Shown one piece after another: positions 47,838 to 56,723 of a stretch of 64,000 nt of DNA (the stretch's first letter is position 1; every line of letters starts with the position of its first letter). Under the pieces are notes generated by a model, which worked only from the letters and a program-made list of their open reading frames with translations, made no database searches and had not been told where the DNA came from. The position numbers were made by a program, and so were the translations under genes. Source of the DNA: an uncultured Elusimicrobia bacterium (GTDB taxonomy: Bacteria; Elusimicrobiota; Endomicrobiia; Endomicrobiales; CAIRNS01); the NCBI GenBank assembly GCA_903880015.1, contig CAIRNS010000008.1, forward strand, positions 1 through 64,000, given 5' to 3'.

Positions 47838-49199
47838 TCAAGTCAAACGCTGAAATTCATGGATACCGTTCCTACCGTTTTGCTTCACCCAATACATCGC
47901 CTTATCGGCAGCCGCAATAAGAACTTCCGATGATTCTCCGTCGCCGGGGAAATGACTGATACCTATGCTGACCGTTACCTGAAGCTCCGTTAGATCGTTG
48001 CCTAAGTTTTTAAGAGCAAGCACCCGCTGAATTTCTTGGGCGACACGCACAGCCTCTGATCGGCTGGCGCCGGGAATCATCACAACGAACTCTTCGCCGC
48101 CATATCGGCAAATCAAGCCGCCCGGGGGCGTACAATTAACGAAAATACGGGCAAGGATGCACAAAACTCTGTCGCCAACAAGATGTCCGTAAGAATCGTT
48201 GACTTGTTTAAAATAATCTATGTCTATCATGCATAACGAGAACTCCGATGCATAGCGCGCGCTGCGCTGCAGTTCTGTTGAGAGACGTTCCAAAAAGTAA
48301 CGACGCAAGAAAAGCCCGGTTAATCCGTCAGTCCGGGACCGTTCCTGAACTTCCCAAAACAGCTGCATCCGTTTGAGTCCTAATGCTACCTGCGGAACAA
48401 ATATTGTTCCCTCTTCAACATACCGCGGTGCGACTTCAGGGGTGGTCGTCAAAAGAATTGCCGCAAGCGGAGATTGTTCGAACCGGACCGGCCAAAAAAC
48501 TACGGCTTTCTCCCGCAGCCAGAGAGGGCCGTCAAGAATATGAAATCTGCGTTCTCGGCTGAGATCATATTTCTTTTTCATGAATTCAGTCCAAACCGAT
48601 TTTTCATCCCGAGGGAAACAATAGACGCAACTCCATCCTTGATTTACCCATAGCAGCACTGCAATGCCGCTAACCCCTGAGCGTTTAAGAAATGCTTTGG
48701 CAATGTGCTCGAATACATCAGTCATGTCCGTATGCTCAACTAAATCTCTGCCCAGAATGTAGAGCTGATTCATGTTTTCTATCTCTTGGCGGAGCGATTC
48801 GCGGTGATGTGAATATTCTTCCACATACTCTGTTAATTCCTTCAAGCGATCGTTGTGACGGGTAGAGCTCTGCAGTGCTATTGCCTGCGCCATACGATTC
48901 TGCCGGGAAAAATAGTAGGGGACCGGCATCAGTCCGAGCAAAACAACGCTCAGAGACCACTGCGGAAAGTGCCAATCCTGGAGCCCGGACACCATCAAAA
49001 GTCCGATACCCACAAAGCCAGTAACAATGACAGAAGCATTGAACCATTGGCCGAACCAAAGCCCGATAAGAATAAGAATGTAGAGAGAGATCTGACGAAT
49101 TTCTGTTGAACCGGTTAGAAAATAGATGACAAGAAAGGCAGTCAGGGCAGAAACAAATTGAACATACTGTTTCGCTTTAATGGGTAAGCCATTATTCAT
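47838..49199 (-). CDS. Membrane diguanylate cyclase without I-site
   Basis: I take the ATG at 49199 (453 aa), which overlaps the upstream cyclase gene by 8 bp. The N terminus has about four hydrophobic segments (residues 10-110), then a coiled-coil-like stretch and a GAF-like region. A C-terminal GGDEF domain follows, with CRYGGEEFVVMIPG as active site. The inhibitory RxxD motif expected five residues before GGEEF is replaced by PPGG, so product inhibition at that site is probably lost. It makes cyclic di-GMP; the signal is unknown. Confidence 0.88.
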   Translation of the reverse strand: MNNGLPIKAKQYVQFVSALTAFLVIYFLTGSTEIRQISLYILILIGLWFGQWFNASVIVTGFVGIGLLMVSGLQDWHFPQWSLSVVLLGLMPVPYYFSRQNRMAQAIALQSSTRHNDRLKELTEYVEEYSHHRESLRQEIENMNQLYILGRDLVEHTDMTDVFEHIAKAFLKRSGVSGIAVLLWVNQGWSCVYCFPRDEKSVWTEFMKKKYDLSRERRFHILDGPLWLREKAVVFWPVRFEQSPLAAILLTTTPEVAPRYVEEGTIFVPQVALGLKRMQLFWEVQERSRTDGLTGLFLRRYFLERLSTELQRSARYASEFSLCMIDIDYFKQVNDSYGHLVGDRVLCILARIFVNCTPPGGLICRYGGEEFVVMIPGASRSEAVRVAQEIQRVLALKNLGNDLTELQVTVSIGISHFPGDGESSEVLIAAADKAMYWVKQNGRNGIHEFQRLT

Positions 49200-50571
49200 A
49201 TATTTCCACCCGGTTACGACCGTTGGCTTTTGCACGGTAGAGCGCTGCATCGGCAGCCCCAATAAGATCTTCAGCCCCGTTAATGGCATCCGACAATACC
49301 GCTACCCCCGCGCTGACCGTTATATTAACAAATTCAGGTTTAAATCCTTCCATCGGGAGAAAAAATTGTTCGATTTCCACGGCATGGCGCACTTTCTCAA
49401 TGATAGCAATAGCATCATCACGACATGTTTGAACCATAATAACAGCGAATTCTTCACCCCCGTACCGGCAGACAAAATCCGTTTCTCGAAGTCGCTCGCG
49501 TATCAGTACCGCAATGTGGCGCAAAACAACATCGCCGCCGGCATGTCCGTAGGTGTCATTGAATGTCTTGAAATTATCCACATCTATTATGGCGGCGCTC
49601 AACGAAAACAGACTGTTTTTTGAACGGAGAATCTCGCCGTGCAGTCGTTCCTTAAAGTAGCTCTGGACGAACAGTCCCGTCAATTCATCGGTTATGGCTA
49701 AATCCAGCGAGATTTGATAGAGGCGAGAATTGCTCAGCATCTGTGAAGCAATGCCGCCTAATAATGACAAGAGGCGCACATCATTTTCGCTAAAAACATC
49801 TGCCTCCTCCGCTGTCCCTTTGAGTATACCCCAGTAATGGCCGTCAACATTCAACGGCAAAGCTACCAAGGAGGCACCAACAGATTGTTGGACATAGAAC
49901 CGACTATCGTAAGCAATGTTCGCTATGACTAAAGGAATCCCGTGATCTTTGATCCATCGAGCAAAAATATCCTTCTGAACGCCTTGTATGACCGTCCATT
50001 CCCCCCGCCGAATAATTTTTTCAGCCATTTCGACAACTAAAGCAATAATTTTTTCTTTGTTCAACGACACGCCGAACTTTTCTATCATCCGCCCCAGTAG
50101 TTGATAATTGGATATTCGCTGTTTGAAGTCATCACAGGCGTGGCGCGTTTCCATAGCACTGTTCTCCATAAAGGCGATTTTACTCTCAAGCTCCTCTATT
50201 TCTTCCGCGCTATGATCAAACTGATTTTTTCCAAAAATGCGGTAGCGGTCAATGCAAAGAAATATCGACCACAAAACTACCGCTTGAACAATGAACAACA
50301 TTCGTGACAATTCATACGGAGTAATGAATTGCGCCAAAACTGCAACTATTGAAATAAAACAGAGCAGTATCCCCGCGAATACATAACCCGAAAAAAAATA
50401 AAACAGGACGATGACAATGCTTATAGAAGGAAAAATGAGGATTTTCGGCAGGGGGGACTCAACAAGGACATATATCCAGACAAAAAACAAAATAAAAGAG
50501 ATTATCGGAACGACAATACTGCGTACTAAGTCGCCCACCGGCCAATGTTTTATTTCCGGGACGGTACTCAT
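49192..50571 (-). CDS. Membrane diguanylate cyclase with GAF domain and I-site
   Basis: I take the ATG at 50571 (459 aa); the longer frame would overlap the SpoVG-like gene. It has several membrane segments in the first 125 residues, a short coiled coil, a GAF domain (about 165-295) and a GGDEF domain with CRYGGEEFAVIM. RETD precedes GGEEF by five residues, the usual inhibitory site. Its architecture parallels the next gene downstream, so the pair probably arose by duplication. Confidence 0.88.
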   Translation of the reverse strand: MSTVPEIKHWPVGDLVRSIVVPIISFILFFVWIYVLVESPLPKILIFPSISIVIVLFYFFSGYVFAGILLCFISIVAVLAQFITPYELSRMLFIVQAVVLWSIFLCIDRYRIFGKNQFDHSAEEIEELESKIAFMENSAMETRHACDDFKQRISNYQLLGRMIEKFGVSLNKEKIIALVVEMAEKIIRRGEWTVIQGVQKDIFARWIKDHGIPLVIANIAYDSRFYVQQSVGASLVALPLNVDGHYWGILKGTAEEADVFSENDVRLLSLLGGIASQMLSNSRLYQISLDLAITDELTGLFVQSYFKERLHGEILRSKNSLFSLSAAIIDVDNFKTFNDTYGHAGGDVVLRHIAVLIRERLRETDFVCRYGGEEFAVIMVQTCRDDAIAIIEKVRHAVEIEQFFLPMEGFKPEFVNITVSAGVAVLSDAINGAEDLIGAADAALYRAKANGRNRVEIYE

Positions 50572-50590: not shown

Positions 50591-51238
50591 TTAGGAACTA
50601 TTGTCTTGCGATTGCTGATGACGGCGAAGAATATCCTTAGTGATCGCATCCTTAAGACGGGCATCAAGGAAATTTACCTGATCGATCCATTTGCCTCCAC
50701 CCGATGGCTGGCGCGCCGGCCAAGCGACCCATAGTCCAAACTTAGTTGCGATAACTTTACACTCGATCGCGACAGCATCGTTGAAACTGACTGTTGCAAC
50801 AGCTTTAATTTTCGATTTTGCCGTAATGATTTTCCATTCCGTAACGGCATACGACAACGAGGAATACGAAGTGCGGGAAGGTGTCTTCGCCGTCAGTGCG
50901 GCATACACTGCATCGTGCGCCTGACGGGATACCAGACGAATCTGCGGGTAAACGCGTCCCCGTCGGGAAATATATTCAGGAAAGCGGACATCCAAACGCC
51001 CGCCAACGGTGCGTATTTCTATTTCTTTGATGGTCAGCTCGCCATTGATGGTAATTTCAGCAAGTGTCGGATGGAGTCCTTCCGCAGGGCGAAGGCGCAC
51101 CGCGGTTACTGTTATATCGGCGGCGGAAACCGGGACAACGGCAATGAAACAAAAAAGTATCGCAACGGTACGGATAACTACGCAGTATCTGCCTAATAGG
51201 GACCTATGGGATGATAGAATACTATTGCCCCTTTGCAC
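50591..51238 (-). CDS. Exported protein with two tandem SpoVG-like domains
   Basis: The 215-residue product starts (GTG, overlapping the upstream gene by 17 bp) with a basic stretch and hydrophobic segment ending PVSAAD, a likely signal peptide of about 41 residues. Two similar units follow. The first, about residues 42-118, begins ITVTAVRLRP and holds LDVRFPEYISRRG; the second, about 130-200, holds AVATVSFNDAVAIECKVI and LWVAWPARQ. Both match the SpoVG pattern (VRLR start, SITLD-like strand, FVAMPSKR-like motif). SpoVG is normally a single cytoplasmic nucleic-acid-binding domain of about 85-100 residues, so export and duplication are unusual. Function is unknown. Confidence 0.7.
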   Translation of the reverse strand: MQRGNSILSSHRSLLGRYCVVIRTVAILFCFIAVVPVSAADITVTAVRLRPAEGLHPTLAEITINGELTIKEIEIRTVGGRLDVRFPEYISRRGRVYPQIRLVSRQAHDAVYAALTAKTPSRTSYSSLSYAVTEWKIITAKSKIKAVATVSFNDAVAIECKVIATKFGLWVAWPARQPSGGGKWIDQVNFLDARLKDAITKDILRRHQQSQDNSS

Positions 51239-52253
51239 ACTTATTTTCGATAAATTTCATAAGGCACGCGCTGTTGCGGGCGGCGTCAGTACCGAGGTAT
51301 ATACAATAGTGTCGGGTTCTCAATAACAATCGTCCCGCCGCGTACAGGCGGGATAAAACTATAACGCATTTCCTGACGCCGTCACGAGGATCTCGGCGCA
51401 AAAAATATTCAACAACCTGCGGCAAACCGAGACCGATAACACACTGTGAGAGCAGTGCGCCGGCAGCGTAGAGGATGGATGCAGGTTTGATATCTGCGGT
51501 AGCGGCGTTCACTCTTTTGCCGATAAACAAAAAACGGGGTCTGATGGGATTGGATATTTTTTCGGAAAAAAATGAGATATCAATAAGCGCTTTACTGCCG
51601 TGGTTCCGGCGATGAAATATCGTCACCGCTGCGGAAGGTATATGGGAAGGCACTTTCTCCTCGGCAACACCGACGCGTACCGGGAACGGAAATAGCATGC
51701 CGCCGCGATCGATTAATGGGGTGTCGTCAGAAAGAATCATTGTCGCGGGGTTTTTCATCAATTCAAGGAAGAGGGTTGTTTTTCCGCCGCCTTGGGGTAA
51801 CAAGCAAAGAATTCCTCGACCGGCAACCGCTATACCTAATGCATGGACGCGGTGAAAACCGCGCCGGTCCAAAAGTTCCCCCACCCGGGAGTGAATAAGC
51901 AAATACAAAAGTTCATGAAGCAGAGACGGGTCCCCGCTGTAAAGTTCCCCTGATTCTGCATGGTAATCATACCTGACGACCGCTTTACCGTTATAGTCGA
52001 CATAGCGGATGTTATCTCGGTCATAGACAACCCCGTCCGCAAGAGACATGCTCGCGGTCAGCGGCGGAATAAATCCGCCAACAGGGCTATTGCCGTGAGC
52101 GACAATGCGTATAATCGACAAGAGGGGCGCTTCAGGGAGAGACGGCACCATAAAATAGGAAAAATCAAGCTGTAGTTGCCGAGCTGTCTCCGCTGGGGCT
52201 TCGACAATTAATGAAATCCCATAAAAAGAAAAAGTTACTTTTTTGTTTTCCAT
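51222..52253 (-). CDS. HprK-like P-loop kinase
   Basis: From the ATG at 52253 the product has 343 residues; the start overlaps the glycosyltransferase gene by 19 bp. The first half (about 1-150) is a variable N-terminal domain. The second half has a PEPCK/HPr-kinase-like P loop (LLPQGGGKTTL near residue 175) and the downstream ILSDDTPLI motif. Such HprK-related kinases occur in surface-glycan and modified-peptide loci and are not true HPr kinases, as the HPr-interaction C terminus is not evident. The substrate is unknown; neighbours are a glycosyltransferase and radical SAM enzymes. Confidence 0.78.
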   Translation of the reverse strand: MENKKVTFSFYGISLIVEAPAETARQLQLDFSYFMVPSLPEAPLLSIIRIVAHGNSPVGGFIPPLTASMSLADGVVYDRDNIRYVDYNGKAVVRYDYHAESGELYSGDPSLLHELLYLLIHSRVGELLDRRGFHRVHALGIAVAGRGILCLLPQGGGKTTLFLELMKNPATMILSDDTPLIDRGGMLFPFPVRVGVAEEKVPSHIPSAAVTIFHRRNHGSKALIDISFFSEKISNPIRPRFLFIGKRVNAATADIKPASILYAAGALLSQCVIGLGLPQVVEYFLRRDPRDGVRKCVIVLSRLYAAGRLLLRTRHYCIYLGTDAARNSACLMKFIENKCAKGQ

Positions 52254-53203
52254 GATCCTGACACTATGCCGGTGATAAATCCTGCACCATATGCCGTATG
52301 GGCAACGGGGATAAGCAACAGAGCAATCAATCTTTCTTTTGTGCCGCACGCAGAAAGATATGCGGAAAGGATAACATACAACACATATATCGCCAAAAGA
52401 ATAACCCGTAATGTCGTCGGGTTGAGCATTGCAAAAACAATATATCCAACCAGAAGAGCCGGCATCGCAAATACTGCAGAAAAACTCAGTGGCGCTATGA
52501 TACTCATGACCGCACGCCCTTTTCCTGAACCAAAAACCTGTCGTGCAAAAGGCAATAATGCTGCTCGGCGATCGTGATACACCGCAAGATCAGGACAATA
52601 CATCATGCGTCCGCCGGCGCGCGCAATCTGCCACAGCAGAAGATTTTCCTCATTATAATGCAGTCGCTCGTCAAACCGGTGTCCGTCGCCAGAAAATAGC
52701 GAGCGCCGCATTGCCAGATTGCACAATATAAGCGGACGATCAGTAGAGATACGATCCTGACCATGAGCCGCATAACGACGCGACATAGAAAAGGACACAA
52801 ACGGCGACGCAAGTATCAACCCGGCGGTCTTTTGAAAGCGCGAACTCTCAGCCGGTGTCAGGTTTGGGCCGCCGATAACATCAGCGGATGGATAGAGCTG
52901 AAACTTCTTGGCAACCAATGCGACTATTTCCGGTGAAGCGCGGACATCATCATCAAGAAAATAAATTATGTCGCCCGTTGCCGCTAAACAGCCTGCGTTA
53001 CGAGCAGAACCCTTGCAAGAGACATGTTGCTTAATTATGCGAAGCGTGGGGATTGATTTCTGCAATACCTCAAGCGCTCCCGCAACAACAGCAGGTTCTC
53101 CGTCAATGACAACTACTATTTCATCGGCTGCTGCTGAAATGGACTGAATGCATCTGATAACCGACTCACTGCGGGGGTAAGTAACGATAACGACGCTAAT
53201 CAT
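52235..53203 (-). CDS. Family 2 glycosyltransferase with C-terminal membrane segments
   Basis: From the ATG at 53203 (322 aa, 8-bp overlap with the radical SAM gene) the protein opens with MISVVIVTYPRSESV. It contains the DXD-like LDDDVRASPE near residue 92 and a NEENLLLWQIARAG acceptor/base region near 195, as in GT2 enzymes. The last 90 residues hold two or three hydrophobic segments. The longer frame to 53425 would lie inside the neighbour and was rejected. Sugar and acceptor are unknown. Confidence 0.86.
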   Translation of the reverse strand: MISVVIVTYPRSESVIRCIQSISAAADEIVVVIDGEPAVVAGALEVLQKSIPTLRIIKQHVSCKGSARNAGCLAATGDIIYFLDDDVRASPEIVALVAKKFQLYPSADVIGGPNLTPAESSRFQKTAGLILASPFVSFSMSRRYAAHGQDRISTDRPLILCNLAMRRSLFSGDGHRFDERLHYNEENLLLWQIARAGGRMMYCPDLAVYHDRRAALLPFARQVFGSGKGRAVMSIIAPLSFSAVFAMPALLVGYIVFAMLNPTTLRVILLAIYVLYVILSAYLSACGTKERLIALLLIPVAHTAYGAGFITGIVSGSWKTKK

Positions 53204-54323
53204 CGGAAGAGTCCGTGACCATTGATCGAATGAACGGTTTTTTACCGTCAGCAATAGCGGTTCCCAGCATATATCCATTCGTGCACGTAAGCCAGCAATG
53301 ACATTCGCGACGGTTAAAAAAACTTCTCGCCGCGTCAGCTTCGTTTGATGACCATAGTGCGTCAAATGACTGTCGGTGAACATTGCCGGCATAGGTGGTT
53401 TTATGCACAGGACAGAAATATACATTACCGCGGGGATCGATCATCGCGTACTTGGATCCGCACGGGCAGTTGAGGAAATAGCGGCGGGGTTCGCGCAGGT
53501 AGCGCGGAATATAATGCAGTGCCAGCATCTGTGATAAAAGTCCCTCGCGGGTGAGCAATTCGTGCACAGCGTCGGGTGATATCTCTTCCTGGCGGCACAT
53601 ATACTCAATTATAGCGGTTATCTGACGGTCAACATCATCTATCTGAGTATTCTGCCAAACAAATTGTTTTGTTTCTTGCTTCTGGACCATCGCTTGATAT
53701 GAAATATGATACTTATTTTCTTGAGCCCAGAGAAATGTCGGCAGGATTTGTTCGCAGTTGTCCGGCGTCAGTGTGAAATTGAAACTAAAAAATACAGATG
53801 GAAATTCCTTTTTAAGAAATCCTACCGTGCGCTGCAAAGCATCAAAACTTCCCTGTTTGCCGCGGATACGGTCATGTGCGTCCGCAATACCATCGAGCGA
53901 AGTCCCTATGGAAAGATTATCAAGCCCGGCAGTGTCCCGTATGCTTTTCATGCGGGACACAACGAGGTCCGTATCGATAAGATTTGAAAGAATAAGTATA
54001 CCGGCGCGGGGATAGCGCGCGCGTAAGAAAACAATGATATCAACGAGGTCGGGTCGTAGAAATGCCTCACCGCCGCTGAGCACAATATAAGAAATCTTAT
54101 TAAGCTGGTTGGAATGTTCAATGAAATTTTTTATCTCCGGCAGCGTCAGCTCGGGGGCGTCAGGGGTCAGGTAACGCAGGTTGCACATGACACAGGCGGT
54201 GTTGCAGCGGTAGGTTAGCTCAATGTGCAGTTCTGTCGGCGGACAGACGGTTACTTGCTGCGGCGATGATGCCGCGGCGATTGAAGCGCCGAACACATCA
54301 AGAAATTGTCGGAGCTTGTTCAT
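53196..54323 (-). CDS. Radical SAM protein with SPASM-type C-terminal cluster
   Basis: The 375-residue protein has the cluster motif CNTACVMC near residue 40, the SGGEAFLRPD strand near 85 and a C-terminal cysteine-rich region (NCPCGSKYA, FCPVHKT, CHCWLTC) as in SPASM or twitch proteins that bind extra Fe-S clusters. SPASM enzymes modify peptides or serve in tungsto-/sugar-related pathways. It lies between another radical SAM gene (26-bp overlap) and the GT2 gene. The substrate is unknown; no precursor peptide is obvious. Confidence 0.87.
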   Translation of the reverse strand: MNKLRQFLDVFGASIAAASSPQQVTVCPPTELHIELTYRCNTACVMCNLRYLTPDAPELTLPEIKNFIEHSNQLNKISYIVLSGGEAFLRPDLVDIIVFLRARYPRAGILILSNLIDTDLVVSRMKSIRDTAGLDNLSIGTSLDGIADAHDRIRGKQGSFDALQRTVGFLKKEFPSVFFSFNFTLTPDNCEQILPTFLWAQENKYHISYQAMVQKQETKQFVWQNTQIDDVDRQITAIIEYMCRQEEISPDAVHELLTREGLLSQMLALHYIPRYLREPRRYFLNCPCGSKYAMIDPRGNVYFCPVHKTTYAGNVHRQSFDALWSSNEADAARSFFNRRECHCWLTCTNGYMLGTAIADGKKPFIRSMVTDSSDD

Positions 54324-55893
54324 GAGATGCCTGCTCTTTCCGGCACCGGGCGAGCAAATCTCTCACCGTGGCGGTATCCGACTCATCAGCGATGGACCGT
54401 TCGAAACATTCAGCTGCGCGCATAAAATCATGTTCGTAGAGATAATAGTTCCCCAATAAAAACCATTTGTCGGGTTTTACCCGCAGAACGCCTGATGTTT
54501 CCGGAATGCCCAAACTGACGGCGAACTGGCAGAATTCCTCGTACCGGCGAAACCGTTCAGCATAGGTGTTCAAACCGTTGTCCGATTTCCAATACAGATG
54601 ATGAGCGGCATTGACGATACCGAACTGCTCGGGATGCGTGCGAACAAAGGTTTCTTTTTCAAGGGTAAAAAACGATTGGCTCGCGAGTATGGAATCTACC
54701 CATGGTCGGATGTGGGCAAAAAGCTTTAGTGTTTGCTGAAAATCAGCTTCGGTTTCATTGGGAAAACCGAACATCAGATTGATTTGGAATACTATTCCCG
54801 CTTCTTTGGTATCGCGGAGTACACGGGGAACCGCTTCCACCGAAACCCGCTTATTCATACCGTCAAGTACGATTTGCGACCCGGACTCTAAACCGTACCC
54901 AAGCCATTGGCAACCGGCCTTTTTCATTTTTACCAGCAAATCCTTGGTCATATCGGCGCGCACAACAGCTTGCCCCGCCCACGAAATGCGCAGATTACCG
55001 GCAATCACAAGGTCACAAAATGATTCCAGATTTTTAAGATTTCCGTTAATAAGCAGTCCGTTAAAATAATAATAATCTATCTGAGGAAAACGGGAGCGAT
55101 GGTCTGAAATCTGCTCGAACATCTTTTCAGCAGAGAGGAATCGAAAGTTTGGCCAAAAAAGTCGTTCATAACAAAAATGGCAAGCGTTAATGCAACCGCG
55201 GCTGTCAAGTATATCAAGGCGGTTTGGCTGAGCATAGCGGCGGTCCGCAATATCCTGGGCAAAATCAGTATAATCGGGAAACGGCAGTTGATTAATATCA
55301 TCGACCACGCGAGGGGTGCCGCCGTCAACTACCTCCCCGTTCCTTTTATAGAGGAATCCGGGACACGCAGGCAAATCCTTTTCTCCGGATGTTTCCTTTT
55401 TTTCCAGTGCCGTCAACAAGTCCAGAAGCGCCAGATCGGCCTCCCCGGGACACACATAATCAACAAATGGCTGGCGGATAAAATCAAATGCCATCTGCGC
55501 CCGAGACGCCTTGTGCCCGATAAAAACAATAACGCTGTCTTTCTTGCGTTCCTTAATAAGCGCAGCGACATGATAACTGATCAGGACTGACGGCGTATGG
55601 GTATCAAATATGAACACGCGGGCGTTCGACGAAATGATTGCATCAACGGCGCGAGACACCGGTAAACTGTCTATCAGCGAAGCGACAAACCCCTCGTTTT
55701 CCCAAGCCGAATAAAAATCACGATTATCCCAATATACTTTATACTGAACGGTTGCATCGTGATAGAGCGTATTGTTAAGGTCGAAACAAGCAACAGAATG
55801 GCGATGTGCGCGAAGCCATGCGGCGAAATAGGCAAGGATATACGGCGGGCAATACCGCACCCACCAGGGACATTTTATAAGAGCAACCTTCAT
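54298..55893 (-). CDS. Cobalamin-type radical SAM protein with C-terminal repeat helices
   Basis: The 531-residue protein begins with a B12-binding-like domain (about residues 1-170), followed by the radical SAM motif RGCINACHFCYERLF near residue 235 and YGLESGSQ near 330. The last 45 residues (LGNYYLYEHDFMRAAECFERSI) look like a TPR unit. It belongs with the BchE/P-methylase-type B12 radical SAM enzymes that act as methyltransferases or cyclases on lipids and other targets. It overlaps the neighbouring radical SAM genes at both ends. Confidence 0.87.
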   Translation of the reverse strand: MKVALIKCPWWVRYCPPYILAYFAAWLRAHRHSVACFDLNNTLYHDATVQYKVYWDNRDFYSAWENEGFVASLIDSLPVSRAVDAIISSNARVFIFDTHTPSVLISYHVAALIKERKKDSVIVFIGHKASRAQMAFDFIRQPFVDYVCPGEADLALLDLLTALEKKETSGEKDLPACPGFLYKRNGEVVDGGTPRVVDDINQLPFPDYTDFAQDIADRRYAQPNRLDILDSRGCINACHFCYERLFWPNFRFLSAEKMFEQISDHRSRFPQIDYYYFNGLLINGNLKNLESFCDLVIAGNLRISWAGQAVVRADMTKDLLVKMKKAGCQWLGYGLESGSQIVLDGMNKRVSVEAVPRVLRDTKEAGIVFQINLMFGFPNETEADFQQTLKLFAHIRPWVDSILASQSFFTLEKETFVRTHPEQFGIVNAAHHLYWKSDNGLNTYAERFRRYEEFCQFAVSLGIPETSGVLRVKPDKWFLLGNYYLYEHDFMRAAECFERSIADESDTATVRDLLARCRKEQASHEQAPTIS

Positions 55894-56723
55894 TTCGCGC
55901 GATCCTCGTCGACTATCCAGACATATTCATCGCACGGACAGATCTCCGCCTCGCAGGGCATGGGCGTATCAAAAAGCTTGAAATTATCATCGAACAAATT
56001 GCCGATGGGTTTGTGGCTCAGCGGGCCGCAACGAGTGACAGTGCCGTCAGCTTTTATCGATGCATATAACTGTCCGGACCGACACAGTTTCCCTTTGGTT
56101 TTTCGGCCTTCAAGATGATAATTCATCCGGTCGACATCGCCTAAATAAGGCGCCATCATCTTTTTTTCCTCTGCTGTGTAGGCAGCGGGATAGTTCTTCC
56201 CCTGCCATTCGCCCCAAAACGCCGCCAAAGCGAAGCCAATACCATGTTTCTCAAATTCCTGTCGATAAAAATCGATTTTATCCATCTGCGGCGGATACGC
56301 CAGATAACAAACTCCGCCGCGAAAACCCTTGTTCTTGAGTGCAAGGACTTTGCGGATAAAGGGCTCTATTTTCGCTTCCAAAGGATGAAAGTTCATGTCA
56401 AGATTGACCCGCTCGGGATTAATACGACGGGCAAAAGTATAGTAATCACCGGAAAGCTGACTGGTAACTTTGATCGTATGCATTTTCGAAAGCTCTTCGA
56501 TAAGATCGATAAAGTACGGATAAATGCTCGGTTCCCCGCCCGTGATAGCAATATGACATTCGCCATGACGGTCGTAAATTCGTTTCCATACCGCAATCAT
56601 ATCGGTCAAGGAAAGGTTACGATTATGGGTTTCCATCTGCTCCCAATTTTTATCGAACCAGCAGTAGGGGCACCGGAAATTACAGCGGTAATGAATATCC
56701 CAGACAAAATGTACTTTTGGCAT
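55890..56723 (-). CDS. Small radical SAM protein
   Basis: The 277-residue protein has the cluster motif RCNFRCPYCWFD near residue 14 and ITGGEPSIYP near 65, plus C-terminal cysteines (RCGPLSH, CEAEICPCDEY) consistent with an auxiliary cluster. It overlaps the next radical SAM gene by 4 bp. It resembles small radical SAM enzymes beside glycan or peptide loci. The function is not known. Confidence 0.85.
   Translation of the reverse strand: MPKVHFVWDIHYRCNFRCPYCWFDKNWEQMETHNRNLSLTDMIAVWKRIYDRHGECHIAITGGEPSIYPYFIDLIEELSKMHTIKVTSQLSGDYYTFARRINPERVNLDMNFHPLEAKIEPFIRKVLALKNKGFRGGVCYLAYPPQMDKIDFYRQEFEKHGIGFALAAFWGEWQGKNYPAAYTAEEKKMMAPYLGDVDRMNYHLEGRKTKGKLCRSGQLYASIKADGTVTRCGPLSHKPIGNLFDDNFKLFDTPMPCEAEICPCDEYVWIVDEDRAK

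Follow-up and report, generated by a model that had tools for sequence, protein, structure and literature searches.

The window analysed here, a 64,000-nucleotide stretch of DNA from an uncultured Elusimicrobia bacterium, almost certainly encodes a protein in which two SpoVG units follow a conserved export signal. SpoVG is a small cytoplasmic nucleic-acid-binding regulator, canonically a single domain of about 100 residues, and to our knowledge its fold has so far been known only as an intracellular nucleic-acid binder. The exported, duplicated form is new within the SpoVG family: it has the fold and the homology and lacks the features of the canonical cytoplasmic regulator. The family to which it belongs is widespread, conserved and apparently undescribed. 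We found no exported or tandem SpoVG protein in the open-access literature, subscription papers and protein-architecture databases lying outside the search; within those searchable papers, the view of a sequence-only reading that a periplasmic use of the SpoVG fold was undescribed holds good. In terms of function, we tentatively favour, as a fair possibility short of a probable one, an envelope nucleic-acid binder. The protein, exported by the Sec route, would use its two SpoVG domains beyond the cytoplasmic membrane to bind nucleic acid or another polyanion of similar kind, and would serve DNA uptake or the handling of extracellular DNA.

The gene and its parts are arranged as follows.

50591..51238, minus strand: exported tandem SpoVG gene, 215 amino acids, with an uncertain GTG start.
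51122..51238, minus strand: N-terminal signal peptide region, residues 1-39, with the hydrophobic stretch RTVAILFCFIAVVPVSA and predicted cleavage before ADITV.
50885..51121, minus strand: SpoVG unit 1, divergent, residues 40-118, below the Pfam cutoff (14 bits alone) and recognised by hhalign and a structure model with its PDB match.
50609..50854, minus strand: SpoVG unit 2, residues 129-210, recognised by Pfam (35.4 bits alone), hhalign, and a structure model with its PDB match.
50708..50713, minus strand: R176-Q177, at the place of the Staphylococcus aureus K50-R51 doublet, with a single basic residue left, as judged from column counts.

The frame is thus the one proposed from the letters alone, on the minus strand and 215 residues long when counted from the GTG. 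The Pfam SpoVG profile (PF04026, cutoff 29.6 bits) scores 44.4 bits against the whole protein, in which it is the sole Pfam domain, helix-hairpin-helix being absent from the scan. The C-half alone passes the cutoff at 35.4 bits, whereas the N-half alone stays below it (14.1 bits, E 0.052), and the N-half was therefore examined by hhalign, through the score of a relative's N-half and by structure modelling. First of all, when N-halves and canonical SpoVG proteins, each set aligned independently, were compared by hhalign, the N-half profile matched with 95% probability (E 1.7e-8) and a score of 45, as against 13 or less for 30 column-shuffled N-half profiles; the C-half profile gave 99% and E 2.4e-19. 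Second, the N-half of a relative from the same order (G006) exceeds the Pfam cutoff with 31.8 bits. Third, AlphaFold2 folded the N-half alone with a pLDDT of 91.5, and Foldseek against the PDB ranked ten SpoVG chains first to tenth for this model, all with probability 1.00, the next best match having 0.38. The full mature chain (pLDDT 93.9, pTM 0.87) returned the same ten SpoVG chains on top, again with probability 1.00. The Foldseek E-values, about 1e-3 to 1e-1, are modest, as one would expect of a domain of 80 residues; the ranking is the informative part. Chance similarity of the N-half to SpoVG is rejected on the shuffled controls and the structure match. The two SpoVG-like units of the sequence-only reading are thus confirmed, the second by Pfam and the first by hhalign and its model: each half matches by profile, the N-half significantly in profile-profile comparison, and both the full and the N-half models match SpoVG crystal structures before anything else. 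The high pTM of the full model suggests a fixed mutual arrangement of the units and would fit a chain folded, probably, as a built-in pseudo-dimer.

Evidence for export comes mainly from conservation across the family, which is also the main support for the signal peptide of the window protein itself. A hydrophobic stretch N-terminal to the first unit (12 residues with a mean hydropathy of at least 1.8) is found in 82 of 84 tandem members and in none of 26 canonical SpoVG proteins; one of the two exceptions is interrupted by a contig end and the other scores 1.77. An AxA-like site is present in 83 of the 84. Two of the three members from a second phylum are lipoprotein-like, with a lipobox, and in the third the signal peptide is of the ordinary type. 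The window protein is thus probably exported by the Sec route, and the signal peptide predicted earlier is borne out. The location assigned to it, periplasmic, is better worded as exported, because the periplasm, the outer membrane and the surface are indistinguishable here. An ordinary cytoplasmic SpoVG regulator with its start placed too far upstream would fit the GTG at 51238, which has no Shine-Dalgarno sequence on inspection, but the near-constant hydrophobic segment and the lipoboxes of the second phylum speak against it, as does the layout of the frame. Codon 7 is an ATT, preceded by AAGGG at a distance of about 13 bases. The GTG at codon 47, which is the next standard start, lacks a Shine-Dalgarno sequence and lies inside the first strand, which it would truncate. 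All start candidates that spare the whole first strand also retain the hydrophobic segment. With no plausible start codon downstream of that segment, and with the segment conserved in the family, a start 3' of it is rejected, and the cytoplasmic regulator is barely credible.

The tandem gene is the sole SpoVG gene in the window's genome, where the only further match has an E of 0.15. Among 60 relatives from the order, a Pfam search gave SpoVG matches in 49, and many relatives carry a canonical SpoVG (E about 1e-31) together with a window-like frame of about 180-240 residues; 35 of these frames align well, with N65, W170 and P174 invariant. Across the phylum, a profile search found matches in 270 of 341 genomes, many of them being a canonical SpoVG recognised through the C-half alone; full-length tandem matches extend over the window's whole class and to several further families of the phylum. 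A scan of genome contigs with the single window sequence returned no loci; one based on the alignment, covering 84,980 species, returned 30, of which 29 are labelled as Endomicrobium, Endomicrobia, Elusimicrobia or candidate genera thereof. The thirtieth belongs to a second small phylum, where all three genomes have a tandem SpoVG. A tree built from the single units places the N-units in one clade and canonical SpoVG in another, with the C-units between them. The family is an old one that split from cytoplasmic SpoVG; as the survey of homologues shows, it spans Elusimicrobiota and reaches one other small phylum. It is independent of canonical SpoVG and of the diguanylate cyclases described below. 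The gene is under purifying selection, with dN/dS between close pairs of 0.13-0.51. An exported SpoVG throughout a phylum widens the known uses of a fold otherwise treated as that of a cytoplasmic regulator.

Several loci show departures from the usual arrangement. In some symbiont genomes (G026, G044 and G318), stop codons disrupt the tandem gene; interrupted copies in reduced symbiont genomes lie at L183:1756-2333, G044:C13 and G318:C32, and comEC is also broken in G318. A single-contig genome (G014:C1:1446254-1446501, locus L022) has a canonical SpoVG gene that runs across two briefly overlapping frames, through a frameshift or gene decay, and an intact exported tandem copy. At L137:1618-3385 (G332), two tandem SpoVG genes lie near each other, flanked by HHH_3 barrel proteins.

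The residues through which canonical SpoVG contacts DNA are only partly kept. In S. aureus, K50 and R51 are each required for DNA binding (PMC3688583). Canonical Elusimicrobiota SpoVG proteins mostly have two basic residues at this place. In unit 2 of the tandem family, the second residue is Lys in 63 of 84 members and the first is Arg in merely 22, and in unit 1, the first is Tyr in 69 of 84 and the second is mixed. The window protein reads R176-Q177 in unit 2 and Y89-I90 in unit 1, and the canonical basic doublet is thus absent from it, halved in one unit and lost in the other. Because these residues are half kept at best, we infer the function rather than read it from the site. Ten columns, on the other hand, hold a basic residue in 70% or more of the 84 members and one column is acidic, with median pI values of 9.3 for unit 1 and 9.6 for unit 2. 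Some of the basic columns may be due to AT-rich genomes, and the window protein deviates from four of the ten. With the doublet broken and ten basic columns present, canonical DNA binding is not to be assumed, and polyanion binding by the family is plausible from its residue make-up. Trp replaces the canonical Met or Phe at three conserved sites of unit 2 (W170, W173 and W184). The fold could have been recruited to bind something else outside the cell, such as peptidoglycan, a glycan or a protein, through the Trp-rich face of unit 2 and with no part for nucleic acid. The loss and halving of the DNA-contact doublet and the three Trp substitutions favour this reading, but the neighbours indicate no particular alternative ligand, and those that recur, HHH_3 and PLD-like proteins, indicate DNA; we regard it as possible, if somewhat unlikely.

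The tandem gene has the following neighbours in the window.

49192..50571, minus strand: first membrane diguanylate cyclase, with transmembrane, GAF-like and GGDEF regions, GGEEF kept and an RxxD I-site; its likely ATG at 50571 lies 20 bases past the SpoVG stop.
47838..49289, minus strand: second membrane diguanylate cyclase, a conserved neighbour with a clear GGDEF match.
51222..52349, minus strand: HprK-like P-loop kinase, upstream, with a weak TIGR04355 match; it also adjoins the gene at four further loci of the order.

The setting given by the sequence-only reading, an HprK-like kinase before the gene and two diguanylate cyclases after it, stands for the cyclases, with their clear GGDEF matches, and is weaker for the kinase, which scores 20.6 bits against a TIGR04355 cutoff of 200. 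The kinase is part of a block just upstream (51222-56723, minus strand) that also holds three radical-SAM-like proteins and a glycosyltransferase; the gene clusters of this block recur in identical order in L051 and L052.

The SpoVG gene is followed by both cyclases in the same order and strand at 25 of 33 loci of the order, in several families, one gene intervening at one of these loci. Such constancy would suit a periplasmic regulator that senses an envelope signal and tunes c-di-GMP through the two membrane cyclases, in the manner of YfiR. The tandem gene is found, however, without any GGDEF match in five genomes (G005, G012, G027, G028 and G034), and the cyclase pair without the tandem gene in three (G002, G003 and G007); the obligate co-occurrence of a YfiBNR-type system is thus not seen, and an obligate c-di-GMP partnership is rejected. 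Furthermore, both cyclases have hydrophobic segments only, with no sizeable periplasmic domain, and outside the order the cyclases do not adjoin the tandem gene. A regulator of this kind is therefore quite improbable. Conservation of the pair in those three genomes (L176, L177 and L178) makes the pair a conserved unit in itself.

In deeper families, the neighbours are of another kind: PorV/PorP-like barrels, proteins with FlgD_ig or T9SS-like tails, a subtilase, PilB and exported HHH_3 proteins. The barrels, the FlgD_ig-tailed proteins, the subtilase and PilB, which adjoin the gene in several families, would fit an accessory role in envelope machinery (type IV pili or type II secretion, or else export of the T9SS-like kind), for example that of a periplasmic chaperone for exported proteins with C-terminal sorting tails. 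Seven near-complete genomes (G005, G009, G012, G020, G027, G028 and G038), however, retain the gene and have no FlgD_ig match, and two of them (G012 and G038) have no T2SSE match either. A T9SS-like or pilus-only role is weakened by these genomes, and we consider a part in such machinery unlikely. PADLOC gave no anti-phage defence match for the tandem SpoVG protein.

Exported HHH_3 proteins of the ComEA type adjoin the tandem gene in five families outside the order. The HHH_3 matches beside the gene make up 4 of 4 in the genome for G329, 4 of 5 for G332, 3 of 4 for G229, 2 of 5 for G335, 2 of 4 for G339 and 1 of 1 for G228; chance estimates for this clustering in single genomes range from 2e-2 to 5e-6 and, given shared ancestry, are not independent. 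The HHH_3 domain is not confined to DNA-binding proteins, an example being T2SS protein K. No HHH_3 neighbours occur in the window's own order, and the only HHH_3 match in the window's genome is a frame of 760 residues, which is not small and ComEA-like. In each of the three genomes of the second phylum, the gene that comes next after the tandem SpoVG gene encodes an exported PLDc_2 protein. These are the following.

L188:318-6752, minus strand: large exported PLDc_2 protein after the tandem SpoVG gene.
L189:6862-9999: large exported PLDc_2 protein after the tandem SpoVG gene.
L187:8543-9586: large exported PLDc_2 protein after the tandem SpoVG gene.

Two of them carry fibronectin repeats and one (L188) a lamin tail domain, just under the cutoff; lamin tail domains are found in proteins of extracellular DNA metabolism (PMC5118699). 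In five families, the gene immediately downstream of the tandem gene encodes a membrane protein that has about five hydrophobic segments and that Pfam does not match (L143:9003-9851, and also L144, L037, L136 and L146).

It is the combination of HHH_3 and PLD-like partners outside the cytoplasm with a nucleic-acid-binding fold that favours a DNA role in the envelope. Where a lineage has ComEC and lacks an exported ComEA-type protein, the tandem SpoVG protein might act as the envelope DNA receptor. ComEC is present in the window's genome and in 31 of 31 near-complete genomes of the order with an intact tandem copy, compared with 6 of 8 without one; the associated p of 0.038 is uncorrected for kinship, and the comparison is confounded by genome reduction and by the near-universal presence of ComEC. 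Two genomes (G002 and G003) have ComEC and no tandem gene. The broken doublet, the near-universality of ComEC and the missing HHH_3 neighbours in the window's order all count against a DNA role. In Endomicrobium, comEC is conserved and expressed along with other competence genes, and the outer-membrane step is unexplained; some strains have few pilus genes or none (PMC8809381). The tandem SpoVG protein is a concrete candidate for DNA passage across the envelope of these bacteria, such strains included. The broader proposal, that a nucleic-acid-binding fold was exported, duplicated and put to use in Elusimicrobiota as an envelope DNA receptor feeding ComEC, Endomicrobium symbionts included, is a doubtful one; if true, such a receptor would also exist in the Endomicrobium symbionts living inside termite-gut flagellates.

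Among known systems, the closest is the SpoVG family itself (PF04026; Bacillus, Staphylococcus, Borrelia and Listeria), whose fold is found in both window units, unit 2 passing the Pfam cutoff, and whose crystal structures are matched by both window models, with nothing else matched well. The window protein differs from canonical SpoVG in being exported, in having two units per chain, in falling in clades separate from the canonical one, in its broken K50/R51 doublet and in its Trp-rich unit 2, and it reaches one-third of the cutoff of the NCBIfam SpoVG equivalog (36 against 108 bits). YfiR is the periplasmic partner of the diguanylate cyclase YfiN, and the likeness to it is that of an exported protein encoded beside membrane diguanylate cyclases; family scans of the window protein, on the other hand, gave no YfiR-type match, and its cyclase neighbours are dispensable and have no sizeable periplasmic domain. 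With ComEA, the exported helix-hairpin-helix DNA receptor of competence, the tandem SpoVG protein would share the proposed role only, that of an exported, basic and possibly DNA-binding protein upstream of ComEC, whereas it has no helix-hairpin-helix and its fold is unrelated.
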